Shown: positions 6,137 to 21,829 of the stretch, in pieces
Layout: each line of letters begins with the position of its first letter
Position numbering within the stretch: position 1 is the first letter of the stretch
Origin: Pseudomonadota bacterium
Lineage (GTDB): Bacteria > Desulfobacterota > Binatia > Binatales > Binataceae
DNA: 64,000 bases
Direction: 5' to 3'
Assembly: GCA_021324885.1 (NCBI GenBank)
Contig: JAJPIF010000013.1
Span: 1-64,000, forward strand
Position numbers and translations under genes: made by a program
The notes under the pieces: generated by a model
Told to the model about the DNA's origin: nothing
Database searches by the model: none
The model's input: only the letters and a program-made list of their open reading frames with translations

Positions 6137-7118
6137 GATTCTGTTCTCCGCATCCCAGGCCGTTAATCTGATTGGCCGGCGGTACGGCCTGATTGAGCGC
6201 CAACGCCACCGTTGCCGGCATCCCGAGCCGCAATTCGTTCCGGGGGTTGCAGGCGTAAACGCGGACTTCGTAGACCAGACGCGTGCGCAGTTCCGGAGCC
6301 TCGACGCTTTTGGGGGTGAATTCCGCCGTCGGCGAGATGTAGCCGACCCAGCCCCGGAAAACCTTGCCCGGATAGCTGTCCGTGGTTATCGAGGCTTTCA
6401 TGCCAAGATAGATGCGAGCCATATAGGTTTCCGGAACATAGGCGCGCACCCAAAGCGGGTTCGTGAGCGCCATTGTGAAGGCCGGCACGCTGGGCGAAGC
6501 CATGTCACCAGGCTCCAGAATTCGATCTTCGATCACCCCATAAGAGTGCGCGTAAAGCCTGGTGCTGGCCAGGTTGACCTCGGCTAAGGCCAGCGCTGCC
6601 TCCTTGGACTTGAGCGCCGCCTCCGCGAGAGCCAGCTCACTTTGCGCGGCGGCCAGATTGGCAGTGGCGACGCGCAGCGCAGACTCGTCAGTCTGCGCCT
6701 GTTCCTCCGAGACGGTACCCTTCTTGAGCAGCCGAGCATCCCGCGCACTGATTCGCGCCGCGTTGGCGCGAGTGGCCATCGCGCTCGCGATATCTGCTTT
6801 GGCCTTAGCGACATTGGCGCGCTCCTGAACAACGTCCGCCCTGGCTTGATTGGCGCTGGCGGTATAGCGGCGAGCGTCGAGCTCCGCCAGCAACTCCCCT
6901 GGCCGGACAAAGTCGCCTTCCTGTACAAACATCCGAGCAATCCGGTCCGAGGCATCGAAAGCGACCTGGACCTCGCGGATGTCAACATTGCCGTAAAGCG
7001 TCAGGACGTTGTTTGGACCGCTGCGACCACGCAAAAACAGAAGCGACGCTATTGCTGCCACGGCCACGACCAGACCACCTATCGTCACCCTTCGCCGTTT
7101 GCTTAACTTAGCTGCCAT
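6108..7118 (-). CDS. ybhG: HlyD-family membrane fusion protein (YbhG-like)
   Basis: 336 residues from the ATG at 7116-7118; a TTG 18 codons upstream is the alternative. The chosen start gives the expected short cytoplasmic basic tail (AAKLSKRRR) followed by one membrane anchor (VTIGGLVVAVAAIASLLFLR). A biotinyl-lipoyl-like half motif follows (LTLYGNVDIREVQVAF). Next is a long Ala/Lys/Glu coiled-coil hairpin (about 85-185), then the second half motif and a beta-barrel. NVDIR is a YbhG/YhiI hallmark. The protein bridges the inner-membrane ABC exporter to an outer-membrane channel, for which the divergent NodT-type gene is the obvious candidate. First gene of the ybhGFSR-type operon. Confidence 0.9.
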   Translation of the reverse strand: MAAKLSKRRRVTIGGLVVAVAAIASLLFLRGRSGPNNVLTLYGNVDIREVQVAFDASDRIARMFVQEGDFVRPGELLAELDARRYTASANQARADVVQERANVAKAKADIASAMATRANAARISARDARLLKKGTVSEEQAQTDESALRVATANLAAAQSELALAEAALKSKEAALALAEVNLASTRLYAHSYGVIEDRILEPGDMASPSVPAFTMALTNPLWVRAYVPETYMARIYLGMKASITTDSYPGKVFRGWVGYISPTAEFTPKSVEAPELRTRLVYEVRVYACNPRNELRLGMPATVALALNQAVPPANQINGLGCGEQNHAGGHSEIH

Positions 7119-7423
7119 CAATATCGAAGCTTGCCGAAAATCTCCCGCGCTCCCGCTTGATTTATCTGGCAACCGCTATGCCAGCCAAGACTTCAGGTGG
7201 GCCGGTGCGACCAAACCCCAAATACCTCGCCGCTTGCTTTTTGAGCTGCCTTGATGCGTCCAAGGGACACAGTGCCTCCTATCGACACATTGAAAGTTAA
7301 CCTTCTGGCCCCGCGATCGATGACGCCAGGCTCAACGTGGGATTGACGCTGCGGTTCGTCATTTTGAACGCGGCATAGCGCTTGCGGTATTTCTGTATGC
7401 GTCTCCACTATTGGGAGTACTGG

Positions 7424-9034
7424 ATGAGAAAAGTGCATGCGCAATCGGTCTGCGTCCGGCGTGCGCATCGGTGGATTAGACTGGCGCTGGCGGCGCAAGC
7501 GATCTTCGCGCGGCCGCAGCGCCAGGTTTTTCTGATGCTGGCGTTCGCGATACTGGTCACCGGATGCGCCGTCGGACCCGATTTTGAACGTCCCGCGCCG
7601 CCACGGGTGACAGCTTACACTCCGGAAAAGGCGCCGACCGCATTGACGCCGAGTGGCAACGAGCCCGCCCAGCACTTAGTGAGTGGCAAAGCGATCCCGG
7701 CAGCCTGGTGGGAGGTGTTTCACTCGCCGTCACTTGACAATATGGTCCGGCAAGCGATTGTCGCCAGTCCTACGCTGGAAGCGGCAAGAGCGACACTCGC
7801 GCAGGCCCAACAGACGGTCCTCGAGGCCCGAGCTACCTATTATCCCTGGCTCGACTTCGCTGCCGCAGCCGAGCGCCAGCAGGGGCCGGCCTTCGTCCTT
7901 GGAATTCTGCCTAGCGGTAATCTTCCAGTCTTCAACCTCTACACCCTTGGACCAACCGTGAGTTTCTCGCCGGACGTGTTCGGCGGGACCAGACGGCAGG
8001 TCGAGCAACAGGCGGCACTGGCTCAAAACAAAGCATTCGAGCTGGGGGCCGCGCAGCTCACGATTACTGGCAGCGTCGTCACCCAAGCCCTGACCATCGC
8101 CTCGACGCGGCTGCAAATTCGTGCCGTTCGGCATATCGTTGCTGACGACGAAAAGAATCTGACGCTGGTAGAGCAGAAGTTCGCGGTGGGCCGCGTTGCT
8201 TCAACTGACGTTCTCCTTGCTGAGAGCCAACTGACCAATGACCGCGCGCTCCTGCCACCGCTGGGCCAGCAATTGGCCGCCGCAGAAGATGCTCTGGCTG
8301 TTTTGGTCGGCAAATTCCCGGCGGACTGGCGACAACCCGATTTCGAGCTGGCGGATTTCACCCTGCCCGCCGAGTTGCCGGTCAGCGTGCCTTCGGCCCT
8401 GGTCCATCAGCGCCCCGACATCCTTGCGGTGGAGGCGCAACTCCATGCCGCAAGCGCCGCGATCGGGGTCGCGGTTGCGCAGATGTATCCCACCATCACT
8501 TTATCCGCATCGGTGGAGACGGCGGCCTTGTTCCCCAGCGACTTGTTTCAGGGTTCGGGGCTGGTCTGGACGCTGCTCGGGGGCGTCACCAACCCGATCT
8601 TTCACGGCGGCGCTCTCAAGGCTCACAAGCAGGCCGCTGTTGACGCTTTTCGCGCGTCGTTTGCAACTTACCGCCAGACGGTTCTGCAGGCTTTCGAGCA
8701 AGTCGCCGATAACTTGCGCGCATTGGATCACGACGCGCAGCTGGTTGAAGCCACGCGCCACGCGCTCGATGTCGCTGACAGGTCTCTGGAACTCCAACGG
8801 TTCAGTTATACCGGTGGCAAGACCGACATACTTCTCCTCCTCGATGCCGAACGCAGCGAACAGCAGGCACGCCTGAGTTATGCGCGGGCTGAAGCACAAC
8901 GCTACATTGACAGCGCGCAGCTGTTCGTGGCCATGGGCGGTGGCTGGTGGGAAGACCGAACTCTTTGCGGCGACTGCCGGGACTTGCTTGGTTTGACCGG
9001 CGGAGTGACTCGCGAATCGAGCATGCCCCATTAA
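7424..9034 (+). CDS. RND/ABC efflux outer-membrane lipoprotein (NodT/OprM family)
   Basis: 536 residues from the ATG at 7424. That start is preceded by GGGAG at 7413-7417, whereas the ATG at 7382 has no such site. A hydrophobic stretch ends in the lipobox LVTGC, giving lipidated Cys about residue 48, followed by AVGPDF(E/x)RP, the classic start of mature NodT/OprM proteins. Two OEP repeats follow: the helical barrel segments with TLAQAQQTVLEARATYYPWL, and the second repeat with LVHQRPDILAVEAQLHAASA and FEQVADNLRAL. The C-terminus after the second repeat carries a short Cys-containing tail (TLCGDC). It forms the trimeric exit duct of tripartite exporters. It is divergent from the YbhG-like gene across about 300 bp and is probably its partner, although RND pumps also use this family. 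Confidence 0.88.
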   Translation: MRKVHAQSVCVRRAHRWIRLALAAQAIFARPQRQVFLMLAFAILVTGCAVGPDFERPAPPRVTAYTPEKAPTALTPSGNEPAQHLVSGKAIPAAWWEVFHSPSLDNMVRQAIVASPTLEAARATLAQAQQTVLEARATYYPWLDFAAAAERQQGPAFVLGILPSGNLPVFNLYTLGPTVSFSPDVFGGTRRQVEQQAALAQNKAFELGAAQLTITGSVVTQALTIASTRLQIRAVRHIVADDEKNLTLVEQKFAVGRVASTDVLLAESQLTNDRALLPPLGQQLAAAEDALAVLVGKFPADWRQPDFELADFTLPAELPVSVPSALVHQRPDILAVEAQLHAASAAIGVAVAQMYPTITLSASVETAALFPSDLFQGSGLVWTLLGGVTNPIFHGGALKAHKQAAVDAFRASFATYRQTVLQAFEQVADNLRALDHDAQLVEATRHALDVADRSLELQRFSYTGGKTDILLLLDAERSEQQARLSYARAEAQRYIDSAQLFVAMGGGWWEDRTLCGDCRDLLGLTGGVTRESSMPH

Positions 9035-9118: not shown

Positions 9119-11599
9119 TTGGGGGCCGTCTTGACATCGAGGCATCGTGCATGCTTTGGGCTATCCGTGTCCGTTCGTCTGCCCAGCTTACGACTGCGCC
9201 TGTTCGCATTGACGGTCGCCTGTGTTTTGTCGGCCGCAACACGGGCGATTGGGGCCGAGGGTATCGGCGCTTTTCTTTCCGACCTCAACGCGTTGCAGCC
9301 GCGCGTGGATCAGGGCGTGAACGATCCGCAGGTGGCCGGTGAAGTAATCAACGAGCTTGACGCCAACGAAGGGATTTTCGCCCACCTGACCACGGTTCCC
9401 GGCATTAGCCATGTCGAGTTGCTTGAGGCCTACAGCATGCTGGAACGGATGCTGGGGCGGATGTATGACGTTTATTTCAAAAAACACGAGGCGTGCCTGA
9501 CCGAAATCGGCAACGGCTCGGTCGATTGCGATTACTCGACGTTGGAACAGCTCGAGTTGCGCGCCCTCTATCCCTTGTCATGGCTGCGGTTTCACGGATC
9601 GATTCTATTCAATTCGCCCGAGGTCCGCCGCCGGATGCTGCAGAAGGCCGCCGCCGGTTTCACCCAGAGTGCGCTGCTGATCGTCTCACCTGAACTGATC
9701 CGCGAAAATCTGCTGGGGCGCGCCTACTGCGAGCGCGACCTCGGCCAATTCGATCGCTCCAGCTACAACAAGGCGATCGCCGATTTCCGTCAGGTGATGA
9801 CGGCGGGACCCGGCACGGCGCAATATCGCGCCGCCCAGCAGGGACTCGCGACCACCTACGCCGCGATGGGTGAGGTCGCAAAGGCGGCCGCTCTGAGCGC
9901 ACGCCTGGCACAGACCACCACCGGGGCAGAGATGCGGGGCGCTACGATGTTCCGGCTGCAACAGTTGTTCAAGGCCGAGGCTGAGGCGGGCGATCCGGCG
10001 CGCCGCGCGCAGTTGCATCGCGAGGCCGTGACCCTGCTGCGCGACTCATATGGCAGCCGCCGGGAATGGCCCAAAGCGCTGGCCGCGGTCGTCCACGACG
10101 TCGCCGATCCCGAAGCTGAATTCGGCGCATCCAACGACCCATTCGAGCAATACCTTGTGGCGGAAGTGCTGGTCGCCACGCGCCATCAGATGACGGCCGC
10201 CAAACATTATCTGGCCGCGGCGCGCAGCGGTCAGTACCCCCAGGGCTACAAGTACGCCATCGACATTTACTATACACAGGGCCGGCTGGACCTGATGGAT
10301 GCGCCATTGCAGGAGCTTGTCGATCAGCGCCATAACCCGATGGCCGAATGGGCTGCGTACATGCGCTTCAAAATCGCGCGAACCCAATGGGAACGGTCCA
10401 ACAGCCAGCGCCTCAATGAGCTGTGGATCGCGCGCGCGCACGATTACCTTGATCGTTTCCCGCGCGGCAAGTACGCCTATGAACCGCGTTTCAGACTGGC
10501 CGAGTTGATCCAGGCCCAGGGCAGGTATTCTGAAGCTGCCGCTCAGTACGATCAGGTCAAGGGCGATCCGTTCTATGATTTCGCGGCGACCTTCAAGGCC
10601 GCCCAATGCCGCTATCTGGAAATCCGCACCGCCGGCAACAAGGGCAAAGCCGCAAATACTCCGGCGTCCACCGATGCTCTCACCGCGGCCACAATCGCGG
10701 GACTGCGCAGCACCGTCGCCAGCGGACCGGCGATCGAAAAACGCACGCCCGCGGAAGGAAAATTTATCCATGCCGCGCGCGCAAACGCCACCTACATGCT
10801 GGCCGCCCTGCTCGAAGCTCAACCACGCAGGAATTACGCGGAAATCGCGGAATTGCTCGACGGCTTCGAAACCGCCTATCCGCAGATGGCCGCGGATTTC
10901 GACGAGGTTACGCTCTGGCGTTTGCAGGCGCTGGAACACACTGGCCAGTACGCGCTGGCCGAAGAGGAGATCAACCGTCTGCGGGCGCCCGGCCGCCCTG
11001 CCCCGTCGAACGACTTTATCAAAACGCTCGGGCTGGAGACCTGGAAGCAGGTCAAGGCTCGCGCCGACGCGGGCGACCGGGCGGGCGCGCTGGCCGACGC
11101 CCGTCTGACTGCTCTGCTGTATCAATACTTCGAGCAGCAGGCGGATGCGGGCAGGATGAGTGTCAGGAGCCTGACCGGAACGTTATCGATCCTGGGCCAG
11201 GCGTATGCGCTGATGAACGACAGCGCGCGGGCCAAGTCGATATTCGAGCAGGTGGCTGCCGCCTCACCTTCATCGCCCGACGCCAACGCCGGACTGGCGC
11301 GCCTGGCGCAGGCGCAAAAAGAATATCACCGGGCGTCCGACCTATGGAGTCGCGTGGAAGCCCAGGCCGCCGAGTCGGACGAACTTTGGTACGAGGCACG
11401 CTATAACCTGGCCCTCATCTATGCGGCCGACGGCAACCTCAAGGCCGCGTGCGGCAAGCTGGCCCAGACCCGCAGCGAGCATCCGAGCCTCGGAAGTCCG
11501 GAGATGAAAGTGCGTTGGGACGGACTGCAGCGCCGGCTCTGCCTGCATCAGGTGCTTGGCGATAGCGCCGCCTCGCCGCCGCAGCAAGCCGCCAGATGA
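9119..11599 (+). CDS. Secreted large TPR-repeat protein of an Exb/Tol-like cassette
   Basis: 826 residues from a TTG at 9119; a GTG at 9167 (810 residues) would remove a charged lead and leave a cleaner signal peptide (LRLRLFALTVACVLSAATRAIGA). Start is uncertain and neither has a strong ribosome site at ideal spacing. After the signal the protein is helical and repetitive, with many TPR-like units (for example LLGRAYCERDLGQFDRS, AQQGLATTYAAMGEVAKAAA, LAELIQAQGRYSEAAAQYDQ, LGQAYALMNDSARAKSIFEQ). The last unit is near residue 790. It should be periplasmic or tethered to the outer membrane. It lies 83 nt upstream of exbB and in the same direction as exbB-exbD-exbD-VWA. Such scaffolds often recruit partners; the exact role is unknown. 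Confidence 0.75.
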   Translation: MGAVLTSRHRACFGLSVSVRLPSLRLRLFALTVACVLSAATRAIGAEGIGAFLSDLNALQPRVDQGVNDPQVAGEVINELDANEGIFAHLTTVPGISHVELLEAYSMLERMLGRMYDVYFKKHEACLTEIGNGSVDCDYSTLEQLELRALYPLSWLRFHGSILFNSPEVRRRMLQKAAAGFTQSALLIVSPELIRENLLGRAYCERDLGQFDRSSYNKAIADFRQVMTAGPGTAQYRAAQQGLATTYAAMGEVAKAAALSARLAQTTTGAEMRGATMFRLQQLFKAEAEAGDPARRAQLHREAVTLLRDSYGSRREWPKALAAVVHDVADPEAEFGASNDPFEQYLVAEVLVATRHQMTAAKHYLAAARSGQYPQGYKYAIDIYYTQGRLDLMDAPLQELVDQRHNPMAEWAAYMRFKIARTQWERSNSQRLNELWIARAHDYLDRFPRGKYAYEPRFRLAELIQAQGRYSEAAAQYDQVKGDPFYDFAATFKAAQCRYLEIRTAGNKGKAANTPASTDALTAATIAGLRSTVASGPAIEKRTPAEGKFIHAARANATYMLAALLEAQPRRNYAEIAELLDGFETAYPQMAADFDEVTLWRLQALEHTGQYALAEEEINRLRAPGRPAPSNDFIKTLGLETWKQVKARADAGDRAGALADARLTALLYQYFEQQADAGRMSVRSLTGTLSILGQAYALMNDSARAKSIFEQVAAASPSSPDANAGLARLAQAQKEYHRASDLWSRVEAQAAESDELWYEARYNLALIYAADGNLKAACGKLAQTRSEHPSLGSPEMKVRWDGLQRRLCLHQVLGDSAASPPQQAAR

Positions 11600-11682: not shown

Positions 11683-12324
11683 ATGCAACCGCAGTTCAGT
11701 ATCATCGCAATGATTCAGCAGGGGTATTACGCGACCTACCCGCTTATCGCGATCTCGGTGATTTGTATCGCGGTCATTGTGGAGCGTCTGTGGGCGTTGG
11801 GCGGATTGTGCAGCCGCACCACGCACGCGGCGGCGCAATTGCTCGAACCTCTGCGCCAGGGCGATTTCGATCAGGCGCTGAAAAAGACCGAAGCCCGCAA
11901 ACGTCCGTTCGAGCGCCTCTTTCATGCCGTAATCGCGGCCGCCGCCAGCCGCGATCGGGAAAAGCTGATGCAAATCGACGAGGAGCAGCGCTTCGAGGAA
12001 CTGCTCGAACTCAAACGCTACATCTGGGTGCTGGCGACCTCCGGCGCCTCCGCGCCTTTCATTGGGCTGTTCGGCACAGTGGTCGGCATTTTGACCGCGT
12101 TTCAGTCGATGGCGGTGATGGGGACTGGCGGCTTTTCTGTTGTCGCCGCGGGAATTTCCGAAGCGCTTATCTCGACCGCTTTGGGACTTGCGGTAGCTAT
12201 CATCGCGGTCATTTTCTACAACTATTTCTCGGTGCGCATCGACAATCTCAACGCGGTGATGCATGTCAGCGCCAATCGCCTGATTGAAGCGGCTTTGGAA
12301 GGCAGACAGGCCAATGGCAATTAG
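11683..12324 (+). CDS. exbB: MotA/TolQ/ExbB proton channel family protein
   Basis: 213 residues; AAGGAG at 11667-11672 precedes the ATG. Helix 1 is at about 18-38 (TYPLIAISVICIAVIVERLWAL). A cytoplasmic loop runs to about 115. Helix 2 (about 118-140) carries GASAPFIGLFGTVVGILTAF, and helix 3 (about 160-182) carries ISEALISTALGLAVAIIAV, both diagnostic for TolQ/ExbB. Family members form a pentameric inner-membrane stator that turns proton flow into movement of an ExbD/TolR dimer and a TonB/TolA-like effector. Here the partners are two ExbD genes immediately downstream (first overlap 11 nt) and a VWA protein. No tonB or tolA gene is nearby. Confidence 0.92.
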   Translation: MQPQFSIIAMIQQGYYATYPLIAISVICIAVIVERLWALGGLCSRTTHAAAQLLEPLRQGDFDQALKKTEARKRPFERLFHAVIAAAASRDREKLMQIDEEQRFEELLELKRYIWVLATSGASAPFIGLFGTVVGILTAFQSMAVMGTGGFSVVAAGISEALISTALGLAVAIIAVIFYNYFSVRIDNLNAVMHVSANRLIEAALEGRQANGN

Positions 12325-12754
12325 CAAACCATCCTCCGGCAACGGCGGCGGAATCTTCTGGCAGATCAATATCACGCCGCTGACCGATATATTCCTCGTC
12401 CTGCTGATCATCTTCATGATCACCGCGTCGATTTCGGTGGAATCCGCAGCGCATGTCGGACTGCCGCTGGCCGAAAACACCTCACCGGAAAAGCGCGGGG
12501 TTGTCGTCACCTACACCGTCGATCACGAGATATTCGTCAATTCCAAGGATATTCCCGCCTCGGAGCTGCAAAGCACCCTGCACGACGCGCTGGGCCGGAT
12601 CAATCCGAAAATAGTGGTGTTTCAGGGCGACCGCAAAATAATTCTGGCCGACATGGTCAAAATACTGCGAATCGCCAAAGCAGCCGGCGCCGACCAGATC
12701 GCGATCGCGGCCAGGCGCGCGTCGGTCGAGGAAATCGAGCGCTCGCTGCGTTAG
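12314..12754 (+). CDS. exbD: ExbD/TolR family protein, first copy
   Basis: 146 residues from an ATG that lies inside the end of exbB (11-nt overlap). A short cytoplasmic tail is followed by the single helix NITPLTDIFLVLLIIFM, with the essential protonatable Asp at residue 25, then a periplasmic domain typical of ExbD/TolR. Key elements are VDHEIFVNSKDI, VVFQGDRKIILADMVKIL and the AGADQIAIA end. Length and topology are normal. It is one of two adjacent ExbD paralogues, so the motor may use a heterodimer in the ExbB pore. Confidence 0.92.
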   Translation: MAISKPSSGNGGGIFWQINITPLTDIFLVLLIIFMITASISVESAAHVGLPLAENTSPEKRGVVVTYTVDHEIFVNSKDIPASELQSTLHDALGRINPKIVVFQGDRKIILADMVKILRIAKAAGADQIAIAARRASVEEIERSLR

Positions 12755-12782: not shown

Positions 12783-13235
12783 ATGGCTATACCAAGCAGC
12801 AATGACAGCAGTTTGTTCGGCGAGATCAATATCACGCCGCTGACCGACATTTTCCTGGTCCTGCTGATCATTTTCATGGTCGGGGCGGCGGTGGCGATCG
12901 AGTCGGCCGCCCACGTCGGATTGCCGCAAGGCAAAGCGCAGGCCGCCAATGAGCCGCCCCAAAACGTAATCGTCGAGTTGACCGGCGAGCGACGCATCCT
13001 GGTCGATGGACACGAGGTTGGGCTTAACGATCTCGAACCGGTGCTCCACAATGTGCTGGAAAACCTGCATACCAGGGTGGTCATCTTCAAGGGCGACCCC
13101 AGTGTCATTCTGGGCGACATGGTAATCGTTCTTGACATTGCGAAACGGGCTGGCGCTCAGCAGCTCGGTGTTGCTGTTTCCGATACCGATTCCGCCGGCG
13201 CCGCACCCGTGCAGGCACCCAGCCCGGCGCCCTGA
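12783..13235 (+). CDS. exbD: ExbD/TolR family protein, second copy
   Basis: 150 residues, starting 28 nt after the first copy. The helix NITPLTDIFLVLLIIFM (Asp22) is identical to that of copy 1, while the periplasmic part differs (VELTGERRILVDGHEV, VVIFKGDPSVILGDMVIVL) and ends in an Ala/Pro-rich tail (APVQAPSPAP). This is the pattern of a tandem duplication in which the membrane part is constrained by ExbB and the periplasmic parts have diverged. It is followed after 15 nt by the VWA gene. Expected to sit with copy 1 in the same ExbB complex; homodimers cannot be excluded. Confidence 0.92.
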   Translation: MAIPSSNDSSLFGEINITPLTDIFLVLLIIFMVGAAVAIESAAHVGLPQGKAQAANEPPQNVIVELTGERRILVDGHEVGLNDLEPVLHNVLENLHTRVVIFKGDPSVILGDMVIVLDIAKRAGAQQLGVAVSDTDSAGAAPVQAPSPAP

Positions 13236-13250
13236 CGCGAGGCAAACATT

Positions 13251-14483
13251 ATGCTGGCTGGCAGACTGAGTAATCTTCCCGCCACTGCGCTGATAATCCT
13301 GGCCGTCTCGATTATTGTCGTCGCGGTGCTGCTGGGTCTGGCTTTTCAGGCTCTGCGGCGCCCGTTCGGATTCGAGCGCGGACGCGACGCCTGGCGCAGT
13401 CTCAAGGATGCGCTGCTTTTTCTGGCCGGACCTTTTCCCATCTCGATTGCGATCCATCTCGCGGTGCTGCTTTTTCTGATTCACGAAGTCAGGCAGGTGG
13501 CGGCACCCAGGTATATCAATATTCGTCTGGAGTCGGGCGGCGGAGGAGTTGGCGCCAGTCCCGATGTCAAACTGCCCCCGATGCCCGACCTCGCAACACC
13601 CGACACCGCTGTTAGTGCACTGTCCCTGCCTGTTCCAAAAATCGCATCGCAACGAACCCTCACCACCGCTTACACGAACGAGTACGTCCGCGCGGTAAAT
13701 CGCGGTCAGTACGGCGGCTTTGGCGGCGGATTCGGCGGTGGATATGGCGCCGGTTACGGCCGCGGAATCGGCAACGGTTTTGGCGGCTTCATCGGCCAAC
13801 TGCGCAAGAAGGGGCTCGACGTCGTGCTGGTGATCGACGGCACCGGCTCGATGCGCTTTGTGATGGATGAAGTAAAGGCCAGGATGGAACAACTGGTGCT
13901 TGCCATCCACCGACTGGTGCCTGTCGCGCGCATCGGTATCGTCCAATTCGGCGGGCGGGGCGAGCCTGACGAAATCCAGCCTTTTACGACCTCACCCGAC
14001 CAGTTGCAAGCCTTCCTGGGAAACATCAAAGCGCAAAACGGCAGCTACGACTGGCGCGAGGACACGCTGAAGGCCGTCAAGATCGCGGTTGACGGGATGC
14101 AATGGCGCCCTGATGCGAAGAAAGTCATCGTACTGGTGGGAGACACGCCTCCGTGGGACGAGGACTTCGCGCCGATCATGCAGCTAATCAGCAAGTTCCG
14201 TAGCGAAGACGGCACCTTCAACACGGTTGACGTGACCCAGGAGGAACACGAATTGTTCGAGCGCGAGGCGCTCAACGCCAAAACGATTTCCCCATTGCCG
14301 GATTTCTACCTGCTGACCCAGCACGCGTACCAGGAAATGGCGCGTGCCGGCGGCGGCGAATGGCGCAGCCTGACCAGGGACAAGAGCATTAATCAGTCAG
14401 TGCTGATCCTCGCCTTCGGCAAGCAGTGGCAATCGCAGATCGCGGCGTTCCAGACCGACGTCGCCGCTACCGAGGTGCGCTGA
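13251..14483 (+). CDS. VWA-domain protein with TonB/TolA-like membrane anchor
   Basis: 410 residues. Two N-terminal helices are seen: about 11-32 (TALIILAVSIIVVAVLLGLAF) and about 61-78 (PFPISIAIHLAVLLFLI). The second contains S65-x3-H69, the SxxxH pattern that TonB and TolA use to engage ExbB/ExbD or TolQ/TolR. A periplasmic linker follows with Pro-rich and Gly-rich parts (YGGFGGGFGGGYGAGYG, 154-170). A von Willebrand A domain starts about 188 with a MIDAS-like DGTGS (196-200), LVGDTPPWDED (295-305) and a C-terminal end near 400. It is last in the TPR-exbB-exbD-exbD-VWA operon. Inference: it is the force-transducing partner of this motor, with the VWA domain binding a protein or the cell wall. 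Ligand unknown. Confidence 0.82.
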   Translation: MLAGRLSNLPATALIILAVSIIVVAVLLGLAFQALRRPFGFERGRDAWRSLKDALLFLAGPFPISIAIHLAVLLFLIHEVRQVAAPRYINIRLESGGGGVGASPDVKLPPMPDLATPDTAVSALSLPVPKIASQRTLTTAYTNEYVRAVNRGQYGGFGGGFGGGYGAGYGRGIGNGFGGFIGQLRKKGLDVVLVIDGTGSMRFVMDEVKARMEQLVLAIHRLVPVARIGIVQFGGRGEPDEIQPFTTSPDQLQAFLGNIKAQNGSYDWREDTLKAVKIAVDGMQWRPDAKKVIVLVGDTPPWDEDFAPIMQLISKFRSEDGTFNTVDVTQEEHELFEREALNAKTISPLPDFYLLTQHAYQEMARAGGGEWRSLTRDKSINQSVLILAFGKQWQSQIAAFQTDVAATEVR

Positions 14484-14833: not shown

Positions 14834-15664
14834 TCACAGCGCGGCCCTTGCGCGCAGCCAGTCATACCATGGTTGCAGGCCGATTCCGCGCAAGGCTGAG
14901 AGCTGAAAATACCGCAGCTTCGGATTAACCTGGCGCGCATAGGTCAGGCAGCTTTCAAGATCGAACTCCAGATGCGGCAGCAGGTCGGCCTTGCTCAGGA
15001 CCATGATGTCGGCGGCGCGGAACATGTGCGGATACTTCAAAGGCTTGTCTTCGCCCTCGGTTACGGACATGATCACGACCCGCGAGGTTTCCCCCAGATC
15101 GAACAATGCGGGACATACGAGATTGCCCACGTTTTCGATCAACACCAACGAATTCAGCGGCGGATCCAACTCGTGCAACGCGCGGTCGAGCATGCCGGCA
15201 TCCAGATGGCATCCGGTGCCGGTATTGATCTGAATCACTTTGCAGCCGGCGGCGCGAATCCGCTCGGCGTCGCGAATCGTCTCCTGATCGCCCTCGACAA
15301 CTGAAATCGGCACCTCCCTGCCGAGATCGCGGATCGTATGCTCCAGCAATGTGGTTTTGCCCGCTCCCGGACTGCTCATCAGGTTAACCGCAAAAATATT
15401 GCGGCCTTCGAGCCATTCGCGGTTGCGCTGCGCGATCCGATTGTTCCTGGCCAGGATATCCTGCTCCAGCCGAATCGTGCGATGTCCGGGTTCATGCTGC
15501 GCACGTGCCTGCGTATGAGCCCCATCGCCGTGATGGTGCCTGCCTTCGTGCGAATGGCCGTGCTGGTGCTCGTGAGAATGTTGCGCGGTCCGATCGGGCG
15601 GCTCGCCGCCGAAATTCGTGACCGTCGATTCGGCCTCTTCGGAGCATCCACAGGTGCTACACAT
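14834..15664 (-). CDS. hypB: Hydrogenase nickel incorporation GTPase HypB
   Basis: 276 residues. It starts with MCSTCGC, the high-affinity CxxCGC nickel motif. A His-rich tract follows (about 29-61), of the type that stores nickel in several HypB proteins. The G domain has the P-loop MSSPGAGKTT (about 96-105), VVEGDQET and LSKADLLP, with the metal site in NTGTGCHLD. HypB uses GTP to deliver Ni2+ to the hydrogenase large-subunit precursor together with HypA, whose gene overlaps its start by 8 nt. Last of the seven-gene operon. Confidence 0.97.
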   Translation of the reverse strand: MCSTCGCSEEAESTVTNFGGEPPDRTAQHSHEHQHGHSHEGRHHHGDGAHTQARAQHEPGHRTIRLEQDILARNNRIAQRNREWLEGRNIFAVNLMSSPGAGKTTLLEHTIRDLGREVPISVVEGDQETIRDAERIRAAGCKVIQINTGTGCHLDAGMLDRALHELDPPLNSLVLIENVGNLVCPALFDLGETSRVVIMSVTEGEDKPLKYPHMFRAADIMVLSKADLLPHLEFDLESCLTYARQVNPKLRYFQLSALRGIGLQPWYDWLRARAAL

Positions 15665-15992
15665 CGGCTATCTCCACGCTTCGAATTTTGAGTTCCTGGC
15701 CGGAAATGAGATCGGTTTCGGCGCTGCCGCATCGGCAAGCGGTGAACAGGTCGGCGACTTCGAAATGGGCGCGGCAGCTCCGGCATATCGCGCGGCCGGG
15801 CGTTTCGATGATTTCCAGACGCGCTGCTTCAAGCAACGTGCCCTGAGTGCAAATCTCGAAGCATAAACGCACCGAATCACAAACCACGCCGGAAAGGTTT
15901 CCGATTTCGAGTTCCACCCGGGTGACCCTCGCGTCGGGGAGCAGCTCGCTTATCTGATCCACCACGCTTTGGGTCAACGCCAATTCGTGCAT
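15657..15992 (-). CDS. hypA: Hydrogenase maturation nickel metallochaperone HypA
   Basis: 111 residues beginning MHELAL, with the nickel-binding N-terminal His2 and the VRLCFE stretch typical of HypA. The zinc site is CRSC followed by TACRCGS: the second pair is CxC rather than the usual CxxC, so one residue is missing from the zinc loop. The protein hands nickel to HypB and docks on the hydrogenase large subunit; it may also serve urease if one exists. It overlaps hypF by 19 nt at its start and hypB by 8 nt at its end. Confidence 0.95.
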   Translation of the reverse strand: MHELALTQSVVDQISELLPDARVTRVELEIGNLSGVVCDSVRLCFEICTQGTLLEAARLEIIETPGRAICRSCRAHFEVADLFTACRCGSAETDLISGQELKIRSVEIADV

Positions 15993-18346
15993 GGCAGCGC
16001 CTCGCTGTTTCTCCGCTCAGGGAGGGGTGAAGTCAACTGGTGCGCTCCGCGCCAAAAGTCAATGGCCGCGGCTATGGCGGTCTGGCCCAGGGAAATGCCC
16101 GCGTCGTTGGCGGGCACGCGCGAATGAGTGATCACCCGGAATCCCCGCGCCAGAAGTTTCTGCGATGCCCGTTCAAGCAGGAGGATGTTTTGGAACACGC
16201 CGCCGCTGAGCGCTACCAGATTAAAGCCGGACTCGTCGCGAATCATTTCGCATACCGACGCTATCGTCTGGGCAAGCCCGTTGTGAAAGCGCGCGGACAC
16301 GATCTCGCGCGCGATAGCGGTGCGGATATCGTCCACGGCGGAGCGCACCAGATCGGCACCGGCAATTCGCAGCACCTCCGAGCGCCTGATGCCGGCGGGA
16401 TAAGCGCCGCGCTCATTGACATCGGCGATCTGCTCGAACTCGGTTGCCGCCTGACCTTCATAGTTGACCGTGTCGCGAATGCCGGCTATTGACGCGACCG
16501 CGTCGAACAATCTTCCGGCGCTGGAAGTCAGCGGCGAGTTGACCTTCGCGTGCATGGCGGCGGCAACCGCGTTCCAGCAACTGCGATTGCGTTCGAAGAC
16601 ATCCAAATCGGCGGGAATATCCGGACCATAAATCAGGTCCAGATATGCCAGCGCCATGCGCCATGGCTGTTTAATCGCGGCGGTGCCTCCAGGCATCGGG
16701 ACGGTTTCGAAATGAGCAACGCGCCTGAATTGACGCAAATCGGCCACCATGAATTCCCCTCCCCACAAGGTCGCATCCGTCCCGTACCCAAGACCGTCGA
16801 AGGCGACACCGATCGCTGGTCCTTCCTCACCATTGTCCGCCAGACATGCCGCAATGTGCGCGTGATGGTGCTGCACACCGATAACTTCGATGTCGCGCAG
16901 GCCCACGGCGTACCTGGTCGAAAGGTATTCGGGATGAAGATCATGCACGGCCAGTTGGGGATTAATTTCGAACAGCCGCCGCAGGTGCTCGATTCCCTCC
17001 ATAAATGCACGCAAGCTTCGATAATTTTCGAGATCGCCAATATGATGGGAGATAACAGCGGTACGATCGCGCATAAGGCAAAAGGTGTTTTTCAGTTCGG
17101 CTCCGCAGCCAAGGATCGGCCGACGCGCGCCAATCGGCATCGTCAATGGCCCAGGCGCATAGCCGCGCGAACGCCGGACCGCCATCTCGCGCCCGCCTAC
17201 CACGCGTACGACCGAATCGTCGGTCCGAATATGGATGGGGCGGTTGTGAGTCAGAAAAAAATCAGCGATCGGCGCCAGCCGCTCCATTGCTTCGTGATCG
17301 TGATATGCGATGGGTTCGTCCGCGACGTTGCCACTGGTCAGCACGATCGGTTCGGCGACGCGCTCGCACAGTAGATGATGCACAGGAGTGTAGGGAAGCA
17401 TCAGGCCGACGAAGCGATTAGCTGGGGCGACCGCCCTCGCCAATCGCGCATCCGGGCGGCGGCGGACCAGTACGATCGGCCGGCGCGGCCCGCTCAGCAG
17501 CCGTTCCTCGGCCTGGTCGATAAAAGCCAGGCGCCGCGCCGACTGGAGATCGGCCGCCATTACGGCGAACGGCTTGTCTTCGCGATGCTTGCGCGAGCGC
17601 AACGCGCAGGCCGCGGCTTCGTCGGCGGCAGCCGCCGCCAAATGGTATCCGCCGAGTCCTTTGACCGCGACAATGTGTCCGGCGGCGATCAGGCGCGCAG
17701 CGGTGTCAACCGGATCGCCGGAGACTTCGACCCCGGCGCGGTCGATCAGGCGCAAACGCGGTCCGCATCGAGGACAGCTGATCGGCTGCGCATGGAAGCG
17801 GCGATCCGAGGGGTCATGGTATTCGCGCGCGCACTGTGCGCACATCGGGAAACCCGCCATCGTGGTGGAGGGCCGATCATAAGGAATATCGCGGATAATC
17901 GTGAAACGAGGCCCGCAATTCGTGCAGTTCGTGAACGGATAGCGGTAGCGCCGATTTGCCGGATCGAAGATCTCGCGCAGGCAGTCGGCGCAGGTCGCGA
18001 TGTCGGGCGCAATCAGCGTGCGGCGCAGTCCTGCGGATCGGCTGTCTGCGATCCTGAACTCGCGTTCGCCTCGCGTTTCGACGTCGGTTACCGCGATGCG
18101 ATCGATGGCGGCCAGAACCGGCGCTTCGCGTGGTAATCGTGCCACGAACTCGCGGACCGCGCCGGCACTGCCTTCGACTTCGATCACGACTCCGCGATAG
18201 TCGTTAATAACATGGCCGCCGAGCCCCAGGCGCGCCGCCAGCGAATATACAAATGGACGAAAGCCAACGCCCTGCACGATGCCTTCCACCCGGACCGCGC
18301 GCCGGATGAAAGCCGCCGCATCGCCTGTGATCTGGGCTTGATTCAT
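15974..18346 (-). CDS. hypF: Carbamoyltransferase HypF
   Basis: 790 residues from the ATG at 18344-18346 (MNQAQITGDAA). Upstream in-frame codons run into hypE and lack family character. The domains are in order. Acylphosphatase comes first (VEGIVQGVGFRPFVYSL, about 20-36). Two zinc fingers of form Cx2Cx18Cx2C follow (C119/C122/C141/C144 and C169/C172/C191/C194). A YrdC-like domain has VAVKGLGGYHLA, and a Kae1-like domain has QHHHAHIAACL and GVAFDGLGYG. HypF makes the carbamoyl group that HypE converts to cyanide for the NiFe active site. All expected motifs are intact and the size is normal. Confidence 0.97.
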   Translation of the reverse strand: MNQAQITGDAAAFIRRAVRVEGIVQGVGFRPFVYSLAARLGLGGHVINDYRGVVIEVEGSAGAVREFVARLPREAPVLAAIDRIAVTDVETRGEREFRIADSRSAGLRRTLIAPDIATCADCLREIFDPANRRYRYPFTNCTNCGPRFTIIRDIPYDRPSTTMAGFPMCAQCAREYHDPSDRRFHAQPISCPRCGPRLRLIDRAGVEVSGDPVDTAARLIAAGHIVAVKGLGGYHLAAAAADEAAACALRSRKHREDKPFAVMAADLQSARRLAFIDQAEERLLSGPRRPIVLVRRRPDARLARAVAPANRFVGLMLPYTPVHHLLCERVAEPIVLTSGNVADEPIAYHDHEAMERLAPIADFFLTHNRPIHIRTDDSVVRVVGGREMAVRRSRGYAPGPLTMPIGARRPILGCGAELKNTFCLMRDRTAVISHHIGDLENYRSLRAFMEGIEHLRRLFEINPQLAVHDLHPEYLSTRYAVGLRDIEVIGVQHHHAHIAACLADNGEEGPAIGVAFDGLGYGTDATLWGGEFMVADLRQFRRVAHFETVPMPGGTAAIKQPWRMALAYLDLIYGPDIPADLDVFERNRSCWNAVAAAMHAKVNSPLTSSAGRLFDAVASIAGIRDTVNYEGQAATEFEQIADVNERGAYPAGIRRSEVLRIAGADLVRSAVDDIRTAIAREIVSARFHNGLAQTIASVCEMIRDESGFNLVALSGGVFQNILLLERASQKLLARGFRVITHSRVPANDAGISLGQTAIAAAIDFWRGAHQLTSPLPERRNSEALPCTNWR

Positions 18347-18378
18347 AGTGCGCCGGCATTCCGCCTGGCAGATTTGCT

Positions 18379-19434
18379 TCAGCAGATTCGCGGCAACGCC
18401 TCCGCAAAAGGCAGGTCCAGCACGCGCTCGCCGCCAACCGGCGTTTTCACAAGGACGACTCCCGGATGACGCGCGGTGACGCGGCCGATACACGCCGCGT
18501 CGCGTCCCAGCGGATGGGCGCGCATGGCCTCCAGCACCCGTTCGCCATGCTCTGGCGGCACGAATGCCACCAGCTTGCCTTCGTTGGCAACCAGCAGCGG
18601 ATCCAGTCCCAGGATTTCGCATGCGCCCTTTACCGTGTCGCGTAACGGGATGGTCGTCTCGTCCACTTCGATTCCCAGGTGGCGGCGCGCGGCGAACTCG
18701 ACCAGTGTCGCCGCGAGGCCTCCGCGCGTCGGATCGCGCATCGCATGTATTTGCGGACAGACGCGCAGCGCGGCCGCGGCAAGATCATGCAGCGGGGCGG
18801 TGTCGCTGCGCAACTCGCCTTCGAACTCCAGTCCCTCGCGCTGCGACAGGATCGCGATACCGTGATCGCCGATCGTGCCCGACAGCAGGATCGCATCGCC
18901 CGGCCCGATTCGCGCCGAGGAAAGCTCGATCCCGCGGGGAATCAGGCCGATGCCCGAGGTGTTGATAAAAACCTTGTCGCCGCTACCCTTGCCCACTACC
19001 TTGGTGTCGCCGGTTACGATCTTCACGCCGGCGCGCTGTGCGGCGCGGCCCGCCGATTCCACCAGGCGCCGCAGATCGGCGATCGGCAAGCCCTCTTCCA
19101 GAATGAAGGCCAGCGAAAGATACAGCGGTTGCGCGCCCCCCATCGCGAGGTCATTTACCGTGCCGTTGACCGCCAGTTCGCCGATATCGCCTCCGGGAAA
19201 AAAGATCGGCGTCACCACGTAGGAATCCGTGGTAAAGGCCAGACGCGACCCGTTGAGCGAGACCACGGCCTGATCGTCGAGCAATTCCAGTTCAGGATTG
19301 CGAAAAGCCGGCACGATCAGATTTTCGATAAGTTGGGCGCTGAGCTTGCCGCCGCTGCCATGGCCCATCAGGATTTCCGTCACCTGACTGATGGGCAGCG
19401 GGCATTGCCCGAAAGGCGTGTCTTCAGATGACAT
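18379..19434 (-). CDS. hypE: Hydrogenase expression/formation protein HypE
   Basis: 351 residues from the ATG at 19432-19434, inside the end of the upstream SIS gene (11-nt overlap). PurM-like ATP-binding fold: MGHGSGGKLS near the start, DDQAVV, GDTKVVGKGSGDKV and MRDPTRGGLA. It ends in PRIC, whose C-terminal Cys is the site that carries the thiocarbamate/thiocyanate made from the HypF carbamoyl group. It then passes cyanide to the HypC-HypD complex. Complete and unremarkable. Confidence 0.97.
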   Translation of the reverse strand: MSSEDTPFGQCPLPISQVTEILMGHGSGGKLSAQLIENLIVPAFRNPELELLDDQAVVSLNGSRLAFTTDSYVVTPIFFPGGDIGELAVNGTVNDLAMGGAQPLYLSLAFILEEGLPIADLRRLVESAGRAAQRAGVKIVTGDTKVVGKGSGDKVFINTSGIGLIPRGIELSSARIGPGDAILLSGTIGDHGIAILSQREGLEFEGELRSDTAPLHDLAAAALRVCPQIHAMRDPTRGGLAATLVEFAARRHLGIEVDETTIPLRDTVKGACEILGLDPLLVANEGKLVAFVPPEHGERVLEAMRAHPLGRDAACIGRVTARHPGVVLVKTPVGGERVLDLPFAEALPRIC

Positions 19435-20005
19435 CGTCCGCCCCCATTTGGACATGCAGCAGGTCCCACAACAGATGGAGCAGCGCGGTGTGGGTTTCCT
19501 GGATGCGGTGAATCGACCACGACTTGACGGTGAAGCAATAATCGCACACGCCGGGCATCTGGCCGCCGTCGCGCCCGGCAAAACCAATCGTCAGCAGCCC
19601 CTTGTCGCGCGCGCGCCGCAGCGCCCGATTCACGTTGGCGGAGGCGCCCGAAGTCGAAATTCCCAGCGCGATATCTTCGGGCCGTCCCAGCAGGTCGAGC
19701 TGATCGACGAACACGTAGGAAAAATCCTTGTCGTTGCCGATCGCGGTCAGCGTGGCGGTGTCGATGGTTAACGCGAGCGCCGCAAGGGCTTTGCGTTTTT
19801 CGATGATCGGATGCTGGAACTCGACCGCGATGTGCTGCGCGTCACAGGCTGAGCCGCCGTTGCCCATCGCGATCAGCCGGCCGCCGCGCGCAAACCGTTG
19901 CGCCATCTCGGTTACGCATCGTTCCAGCGGCTCCGCGTTTTCCTCGAAGAAGGCGGTGATGGTGGCGGCGCTTTCGCGCGCTTTACGCAGGATGCTTTCT
20001 TTCAT
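19424..20005 (-). CDS. gmhA: SIS-domain phosphosugar isomerase (GmhA-like) inside the hyp operon
   Basis: 193 residues with a single SIS domain: [16 protein letters not shown] (about 48-63), [16 protein letters not shown] and a helical C-terminus with [16 protein letters not shown]. These are the features of D-sedoheptulose-7-phosphate isomerase (GmhA), the first step of ADP-heptose synthesis. Its start overlaps the hypD stop by 4 nt and its end overlaps hypE by 11 nt, so it is an integral member of the operon. GmhA-like genes have been seen in other hyp clusters, where their role is not established. It could make heptose for LPS or act on a maturation-related sugar phosphate. Confidence 0.88.
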
Positions 20006-21159
20006 TTCCCGGCCAATGGCGCGCCGGTGAACTCACCGCCGTTGGTGTCGAGATAGCGTCCGTACTGATAGTAGGCGGCGCACGCTCCTTCCGCGGACAC
20101 CATGGTGGCGCCCAATGGATTTTGCGGCGTGCACTTTTTGCCGAACGCCGGGCAGTCGCACGGTTTTTTGAGCCCGCGCAGGATCAGGCCGCTGATACAT
20201 TCGGGCGGCTCGCGCGTGTCGATCGCGTCGACTTCGAAAATCTTTTCCGCGTCGTGATTGCGGTATTCATAGCGGAGCTTGTAGCCGGATTTGGGAATCG
20301 AGCCGACCCCCCGCCATTTGCGGTCGCCCACTTCGAACACTTCGAAAATCAGGTCCCGCGCCGCGCGATTGCCCTCCCGCGTCACCGCCCGCACGTACTG
20401 ATTTTCGACCGCCACCCTCCCCTCCTCGAGCTGCCGCACCGCCATCAGAATCCCTTCCAGGAGATCGACCGGCTCAAATCCGGTGATCACGATGGGAACG
20501 CGATAATGCGCCGAGAGCGATTCATACTCGCGATAACCCATCACCGCACACACATGGCCCGGCCCCAAGAACGCCTGCACCCGATTCCCTGGCGCCTGAT
20601 GGATCGCCGCGATCGACGGCGGCACCAACACGTGCGAGACCAGCATCGAAAAGTTTTTCACACCCGTGCGCCTGGCCTGATGCAGCGCCATCGCGTTGGC
20701 TGGCGCCGTGGTCTCAAACCCGATACCGAAAAAAACGACCTTGCGATTGGGATTTTCCCGCGCAATCCGCAGCGCATCCAGAGGCGAGTAAACAACGCGC
20801 ACGTCGGCGCCGCGGCCTTTGAGCGTCAGCAGGTCGGCGTGCGATCCGGGCACTCTGAGCATGTCGCCGAACGACGTGAAGATAACGTCGGGCCGCTGCG
20901 CAATCGCGTGCGCCCGATCGATCATCTCCAGCGAGGTGACGCAGACCGGGCATCCGGGACCATGCACCAGTTCCAGGCCGCCGGGGAGCATGCGGTCGAT
21001 CCCATAGCGGACAATCGAATGGGTCTGGCCGCCGCACACTTCCATCAGCACCCACGGGCGTGTTACCACTGCGGCGATCTTGCGGGTCAGTCCCGCCGCG
21101 ATTTCGCTATTTCGATATTCGTCGAGGTACTTCACGGCCGTGCTCTGATTGGGATGCAT
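20002..21159 (-). CDS. hypD: Hydrogenase formation protein HypD
   Basis: 385 residues from the ATG at 21157-21159 ([16 protein letters not shown]), which lies within the end of hypC (53-nt overlap). HypD signatures are [10 protein letters not shown] (Cys42), GPGCPVCVT (Cys70, Cys73), GFETTAP and the Cys-rich [4Fe-4S] end ([29 protein letters not shown]). HypD with HypC assembles the Fe(CN)2CO unit of NiFe hydrogenase. All cysteines expected by eye are present. Confidence 0.97.
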
Positions 21160-21400
21160 CGGCAGCCAGTTCCGCAGTCTGCCCGAATTCTTCGAGGATC
21201 CGATAGGTGCGCGCCGCCTCCTGCGCGTCGATCGTGGCAATCGCGAATCCAACGTGGACCACCACGAAATCGCCTTTCACTGCCTCGGGCACATACTCCA
21301 GGCAGACTTCGCGGGTGATGCCGGCAAAGCGAACCTTGCCGACGCGCAGTCCCTGATCCTCATTGATTTCCAGGATTTCACCGGGGATACCCAGGCACAT
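21107..21400 (-). CDS. hypC: Hydrogenase assembly chaperone HypC/HupF
   Basis: 97 residues from the ATG at 21398-21400, preceded by a perfect AGGAGG (21406-21411, minus strand) five bases upstream. It starts MCLGIPGEI, the invariant HypC beginning whose Cys2 binds the iron unit and the large-subunit precursor. [17 protein letters not shown] and [12 protein letters not shown] complete the small beta-barrel. A longer C-terminus (about 20 residues past the barrel) overlaps hypD. First gene of hypC-D-gmhA-E-F-A-B. Confidence 0.96.
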
Positions 21401-21405
21401 CGGCG

Positions 21406-21411
21406 CCTCCT
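21406..21411 (-). promoter_or_regulatory. Strong Shine-Dalgarno site of hypC
   Basis: AGGAGG on the minus strand, 5 nt before the hypC ATG. It decides the start over the much longer upstream open frame that reaches 21601. Confidence 0.8.
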
Positions 21412-21429
21412 CTGCGCGGTTCAGGTCGT

Positions 21430-21472
21430 TTTCCCCTACAAAACGGACATCCGGACATCCACCTTTTCCCCA
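21430..21472. promoter_or_regulatory. Repeat-structured element upstream of the hyp operon
   Basis: On the plus strand: TTTTCCCC (21430-21437), seven bases, two tandem copies of CGGACATC (21445-21460), four bases, then a second TTTTCCCC (21465-21472). It lies 30-72 bp upstream of the hypC start, where an operator or promoter would sit. No known consensus (sigma-54, Fnr, NikR) was recognised. The repeats are seen directly; the regulatory role is inference. Confidence 0.4.
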
Positions 21473-21829
21473 AAATAAACCTCTGGCATCGGATGCGAAA
21501 GGGGCGCAAGCCGAAATCGCCATATCGAAGACGTTTCGCCCTCCAATTGCTGCGCAGCCTCGTCCACGACGCGCACGTTGACCTTCCACCACTTCGGTCA
21601 CCCACTTAAGCGTAACGCGGCGTTCGAAGGCAAACTGCCATAAGCGGCGGCAAATCGTCGCTCACGTGTTGCACCGATTAGCTGCCATCTTCTGCCTTCC
21701 TGGCCCGCTCACCGTCAGCATGTCAGGGGGTAGATTGCCCTTGCCAGTTTGTTTGTTTTTTCGGGTCCGCCTCCATTTGTTGCGCTTGCGGCCGATGGAG
21801 CATAATCAGATCGCACACACGGGAGCATC
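21473..21829. other. Divergent intergenic region, hyp operon / thiolase
   Basis: About 360 bp with no convincing gene on either strand. It should hold promoters for hypC leftward and the thiolase rightward. A weak sigma-70-like pair, TTGCGC (21780-21785) and CATAAT (21801-21806) with a 15-bp spacer, lies just before the thiolase. Confidence 0.35.

Follow-up and report, generated by a model that had tools for sequence, protein, structure and literature searches.

A VWA-domain protein with an SxxxH membrane helix as a probable TonB/TolA-like transducer of an ExbB/ExbD motor in Binataceae

How ExbB/TolQ motors match and drive the helices of their transducers is an unsettled question, and the locus described here raises it for a protein that carries a VWA head. 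The locus lies in a Binataceae genome, of which we analysed a contiguous stretch of 64,000 nucleotides (hereafter the window). The original prediction had pointed to an SxxxH signature in the second helix of a VWA-domain protein and had proposed this protein as the likely force transducer of the cassette. Our study supports that proposal through the conservation of the motif, the predicted topology of the protein and a match on the motor side, from which we infer the transmission of force itself.

Gene order and architecture of the VWA protein

The genes concerned are the following:

9119..11599, + strand: TPR-repeat protein, start uncertain (PF14559, E 1.4e-9)
11683..12324, + strand: ExbB/TolQ-type motor subunit, 213 aa (PF01618, E 4.5e-30)
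12314..12754, + strand: ExbD-like subunit 1 (PF02472, E 4.4e-21)
12783..13235, + strand: ExbD-like subunit 2 (PF02472, E 4.2e-22)
13251..14483, + strand: VWA-domain protein, the probable transducer, 410 aa (open reading frame; Pfam VWA_2/VWA)

They form a run on one strand in which the VWA gene comes last, and the order ExbB-ExbD-ExbD-VWA is also that of the near loci that include ExbB. Each of these near loci has two ExbD genes, as detected with an ExbD profile built here, and the same profile finds one ExbD in each of the distant vWA loci, the exception being L035 with its second motor. The TPR gene occupies the same place as in the window in two same-genus loci (L003 and L004) and is found, through weak blastp matches, in 16 of the 17 distant loci L034-L050; none was found in nine further loci of the same family that have ExbB, two of these loci being cut short upstream. 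In L051-L054 and L057, the fetched 8-12 kb contain a vWA gene with SxxxH and no ExbB. Elsewhere in the genomes of L051-L054 there is another vWA gene with ExbB/ExbD, as if several heads shared one motor.

Within the VWA gene, we distinguish the following features:

13281..13355, + strand: extra N-terminal membrane helix, residues 11-35 (AlphaFold2; hydrophobic segment in homologues)
13431..13502, + strand: SxxxH helix, probable motor-binding helix, residues 61-84 (alignment, AlphaFold2)
13443..13445, + strand: Ser65 codon (Ser in 38/39 homologues)
13455..13457, + strand: His69 codon (His in 39/39 homologues)
13503..13781, + strand: Gly-rich linker, residues 85-177, mostly disordered in the model (AlphaFold2 pLDDT)
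13512..13532, + strand: candidate motor box (D-box-like strand) YINIRLE, residues 88-94 (near-row conservation, D-box comparison)
13782..14417, + strand: VWA domain, residues 178-389 (Pfam; Foldseek)
13836..13850, + strand: first metal-site motif DGTGS, residues 196-200 (39-row alignment)

The head matches VWA_2 (PF13519, residues 191-298, E 6.8e-12) and VWA (PF00092, residues 190-332, E 9.5e-11), and a Pfam search at E<=0.1 returned only VWA-type families and a sub-cut-off keratin match, with no TonB_C. Comparison of the protein with the PDB by sequence gave no match at E<=0.01; a Foldseek comparison of the VWA domain with the PDB gave best matches that include BatB (3ibs, the best) and integrin I domains. 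In the first metal-site motif, D196 and T198 are invariant and S200 is conserved in at least 90% of 39 aligned rows; Asp298, of the later metal motif, is absent from the columns listed as 90% conserved in those rows.

Ahead of the VWA domain, hydropathy reveals strong segments, and AlphaFold2 (39 sequences, mean pLDDT 74) models helices at residues 11-35, 46-58 and 61-84, followed by a confident domain from about residue 180. Both approaches predict the segment bearing the motif to be a membrane helix, as had been assumed. The inter-helix loop contains 6 K/R and 3 D/E, so that by the positive-inside rule it is predicted to be cytoplasmic, with helix 61-84 running in-to-out like that of TonB; the N-terminus and the C-terminal part of the protein are both predicted to be periplasmic. 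A linker does follow the helix, with pLDDT under 50 at residues 88-107, 109-148 and 152-174, and its composition is more Gly- than Pro-rich, where a Pro/Gly-rich linker had been announced. This linker, predicted to be largely disordered, and the VWA head agree with those of the published vWA force transducers. One linker position, Pro129, is the same in all rows (39/39), in a region otherwise modelled with low confidence, and precedes a low-confidence predicted helix at residues 133-150.

Conservation of the SxxxH helix and lineage-specific features

Translation of 13431-13484 on the + strand gives PFPISIAIHLAVLLFLIH, which includes Ser65 and His69 of the VWA protein and confirms the S65-x3-H69 spacing in its second helix. 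TolA has the same Ser/His spacing, as stated originally, although the quoted sequence SVVLH does not hold, E. coli TolA being given as SAVLH in PMC12215075. The two residues are the most conserved of the helix, as anticipated: His69 is present in all 39 rows of our alignment and Ser65 in 38, with Ala in L042, while the surrounding columns 64, 66-68 and 70-72 vary. The homologues aligned are 27-82% identical to the window protein, those of its genus reaching 81-82% and those from other families in the class falling as low as 27%, and the distant rows keep the motif (His in 13/13, Ser in 12/13). Among columns filled in at least 35 rows over residues 1-186, only Pro129 equals His69 in conservation. 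As for the SHLS motif of published vWA transducers, S65, H69 and L76 are present (Leu76 is Leu in 26 of the 30 rows with a letter there) and the final Ser is replaced by Val80.

The 39 rows were drawn from 46 distinct homologues after omission of truncated sequences (L025, L026, L027 3-560 and L028) and near copies (L033, L041 and L047). A contig-level scan matched only two loci, both of the same genus, and the diversity of the homologues comes from whole genomes. Among 57 related genomes, the VWA protein has a match at E<=1e-3 in 48 (at E<=1e-40 in 42, weak only in 6) and none in 9, and a phylum-wide search gave a match at E<=1e-20 in 28 of 297 genomes. The phylum search added 17 new loci. 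All nine scoring 171-187 bits have SxxxH, and the sequence fetched includes ExbB for eight of them, the exception being L164, which is close to the end of a contig. At 80-89 bits, the remaining eight all have neither SxxxH nor ExbB in the fetched stretch, and these controls may simply belong to other VWA families. Within the window itself, SxxxH occurs in one of the 40 TM-like segments of 43 gene-like ORFs (the longest non-overlapping ORFs of 120 aa or more), namely the helix of the VWA protein.

The helix that precedes the SxxxH helix is confined to the near homologues: a hydrophobic segment is found upstream in 26 of the 27 that reach there (the exception is L053; L025, truncated before the helix, is left out of this count) and in none of the 16 distant homologues. 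One face of this helix is conserved, with Ser20 in 23/26 and Ala25 in 24/26 near rows, and Gly60-Pro61, ahead of the SxxxH helix, is kept in 26/26. The candidate motor box is also conserved in the near rows (I89 in 25/26, V/I91 in 25/26, L/F/M93 in 26/26), and AlphaFold2 models it as disorder. It resembles the D-box pattern given in PMC10907165, with departures at position six (E94) and, for the majority of near rows, at position two (Met in 15/26).

Ser25 of ExbB and its match with the transducer His

11755..11757, + strand: ExbB Ser25 codon, aligned with TolQ Ser28 (alignment)

In E. coli, TonB Ser16 and His20 are described as interacting with ExbB Ser34 and Trp38, of which Trp38 touches Pro190 in the third helix, and in the cryo-EM structure TolA His22 contacts TolQ Ser28, Ile29 and Trp32 (PMC12215075). 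HMMER places Ser25 of the window ExbB opposite TolQ Ser28 and Ile29 opposite Trp32, in a short piece whose score (-3.8 bits) is not significant, and in a helix-3 piece of 60 bits it places Ile174 opposite the Pro. In a MAFFT alignment, these three columns also contain the Ser, Trp and Pro that TolQ-type motors of other genomes have. Ser25 is present in all 26 vWA-linked ExbB proteins besides that of the window, Trp in none and Pro in two, the second motor of L035 and L039. That second motor of L035 (192-1329) is an ExbB-ExbD pair of the same cluster, on the far side of the TPR gene; it keeps the Pro and has lost the Trp. Trp and Pro belong to a relay that has been proposed for proton gating in ExbB and TolQ; in the window, the codons at their places, 11767-11769 and 12202-12204, encode Ile29 and Ile174 instead. 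Since the equivalents of Trp38 and Pro190 are absent, coupling cannot match that of TonB/TolA in every detail.

The motors with TolB in the stretch are all Ser-Trp-Pro (23/23), compared with Ser-Ile-Ile in the window; Tol motors were defined by this TolB match because a definition by Trp and Pro was circular. Against NCBIfam models, the window ExbB scores best with TolQ, below the TolQ cut-off. Many Gly-type motors are also without Trp, Pro or both. The idea that the loss of Trp and Pro is special to vWA motors was rejected, as the motors of L083 and L073, beside SxxxH transducers of TonB_2 type, lack both. In the window genome (loci L070, G000:C14:1-6000, and L069, G000:C2:191500-199000), the TonB, identified by TonB_C, is without SxxxH and goes with an ExbB in which Gly replaces the Ser, whereas the TolA has SxxxH and a Ser-Trp-Pro TolQ partner.

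The match between the two sides was examined over 111 distinct ExbB ORFs in loci from 57 related genomes, a set that does not hold every ExbB of each genome; the stretches comprised 80 picked by hand among the PF01618 matches listed and two of the window genome. A transducer was paired with an ExbB if the two were encoded on one strand no more than 3 kb apart; it was defined by its head (a VWA profile, or a TonB_C profile built from four Pfam-confirmed seeds) and not by its helix. This paired 94 of the 111, the window pair being the 95th. The 17 dropped were L066, L067 (the window's own copy), L079, L081, L084, L087, L089, L090, L092, L096, L097, L098, L106, L113, L115, L147 and L150, of which 16 are Ser-type and one, L079, Gly-type. 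Two discordant automatic rows were set by hand: in L128 a wrong overlapping frame had been taken, the TolA ORF (L128:2187-3305) having SAIAH, and in L044 a helix Pro broke the pattern, SAAIH being visible. In L035, the vWA gene assigned to the second ExbB lies 2.6 kb away and may not be its partner.

With these two rows set, none of the 95 pairs is discordant: all 59 pairs with ExbB Ser25 have the helix His and all 36 with another residue are without it. Ser25 is the sole perfect predictor of the transducer His among 150 ExbB columns (those filled in at least 85 of the 95 rows), and the next-best single-residue ExbB rule reaches 93%. At the position four residues ahead of the His, 5 of the 59 (L042, L127, L148, L085 and L074) have Ala or Val instead of the Ser seen in most. 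The 36 non-Ser pairs represent 32 different transducers, L082, L094, L103 and L112 having two motors each; their helix reads [S/A]xxxW in 21, SxxxY in 3 and neither in 12, and in these 12 the motor position is Gly in 10, Leu in one and Thr in one. Several non-Ser pairs (L088, L091, L099, L100, L101 and L103) carry a His towards the end of the helix that is not part of SxxxH. In Gly-type loci (L068, L072, L099, L122 and others), a bulky Trp or Tyr, at the place that His takes in others, would face the Gly, as if compensating. On the ExbB tree, each trait switches about three times, with two independent pairs on supported branches and a sign test p of 0.5, so that shared ancestry could explain much of the Ser-His match. 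With few independent switches underlying it, the match points to a putative contact of the kind described for TonB and TolA.

Known systems and rival readings

The idea of a force transducer for this gene arrangement is already in print: Williams-Jones et al. (2025) describe clustered TPR, tolQ-like, two tolR-like and vWA genes of unknown function (PMC12204202). According to the same source, the published vWA transducers have an SHLS helix, a motor box, a linker of about 100 residues and a VWA head, and one has been modelled on the edge of the motor via a conserved His (His35 of its TMH). The window protein shares with them the gene cluster, the SHLS-type helix, the linker and the VWA head; whereas they are described with a TMH (PMC12204202), it adds an N-terminal helix before the SHLS helix and is for this reason filed as a variant rather than a plain member. 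No mention of a two-transmembrane or second-TMH form was found in the main text of PMC12204202, and the two-helix form, the motor without Trp and Pro and the match of Ser with His were not found in the available text of PMC12204202, PMC12215075 and PMC12905483 or in the literature searched. The second family, TPH-vWA, is described with tolQ and no tolR, and with a pore-helix Asp instead of SHLS (PMC12204202); a VWA protein and a TolQ-like motor are common to it and the window, but the window locus has the SHLS-type motif and two ExbD genes. With TonB, the window protein shares the SxxxH helix, a motor-box-like strand, the linker and ExbB/ExbD partners, but it has a VWA head in place of TonB_C, and its motor has neither the Trp nor the Pro found in E. 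coli ExbB. TolA has the SxxxH helix in common with it and differs in its TolA/TonB head and in its Ser-Trp-Pro motor, compared with Ser-Ile-Ile here. Membership of TonB/TolA was rejected on the head domain (Pfam). The VWA fold is also that of BatA/BatB; to our knowledge, Bat proteins do not occur in ExbB/ExbD operons.

We propose, with a probability of roughly 0.8, that the VWA protein transduces force in the manner of TonB and TolA, a VWA domain taking the place of their head. Its second helix would dock, as the helices of those two proteins do, on the outer side of ExbB, where His69 (and Ser65) would face Ser25. Proton flow through the ExbB pentamer would then turn or shift the ExbD pair and, by analogy with TonB and TolA, the motor box may bind ExbD, the pull may pass through the Gly-rich linker and the VWA domain may grip a partner, for which the TPR protein of the neighbouring gene is a candidate. 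The proposal is built on the observed operon, conservation and motor-transducer matching and on a predicted topology; from these we infer the physical contact, the binding of the motor box, the transmission of force and the partner. The comparison supports putative docking through His69 and Ser65.

The same docking could also serve a protein that acts as a regulator or plug rather than a force rod, its VWA domain sensing a ligand and gating proton flow. The extra conserved helix and the missing Trp/Pro relay, which suggest a coupling different from that of TonB/TolA, and the shortness of the linker (about 93 residues) would suit such a role, but published vWA transducers are described with a similar disordered linker of about 100 residues (PMC12204202) and the motor-box-like strand is kept, and we consider it unlikely. 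If the Ser-His match reflected descent only, with no contact and the VWA protein merely a member of the operon, the few evolutionary switches and the non-significant sign test would be accounted for; however, Ser25 is the single best of 150 columns that all share the same tree, and its position is that of a contact residue in cryo-EM structures (PMC12215075), which makes this explanation very improbable. We give still less credence to the conservation of Ser and His for packing between the protein's own two helices, or for some other reason unrelated to ExbB: near homologues do have an additional helix with a conserved Ser/Ala face, yet the distant homologues, 0 of 16 of which have the extra helix, keep His in 13/13 and Ser in 12/13, and ExbB Ser25 matches the transducer His in 95 pairs.

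A tentative extension of the force-transducer reading, and one that we regard as rather doubtful, is a distinct form of 5:2 coupling in which SxxxH docking is kept, the Trp-Pro relay has become aliphatic, and the lineage-specific Ser/Ala-faced helix and two different ExbDs take over part of the coupling. More generally, the pairing of transducer and motor would be specified by a lock and key of motor Ser and transducer His, which could be swapped for Gly with Trp/Tyr. In a family that combines the SxxxH handle with a different head and one helix more but has no Trp-Pro relay, docking and gating may be separable, so that each could be tested alone, and the Ser25-His match, if it holds more widely, would provide a sequence rule to pair transducers with motors in genomes.

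The surroundings of the locus were named by eye. Downstream, at 14834-21600 on the minus strand, lie convergent ORFs resembling the hydrogenase maturation proteins HypA, HypB, HypF, HypE, HypD and HypC, together with an SIS-type isomerase-like ORF; upstream, 6108-9034 holds a membrane-fusion-protein-like ORF on the minus strand and an outer-membrane-efflux-like ORF on the plus strand.
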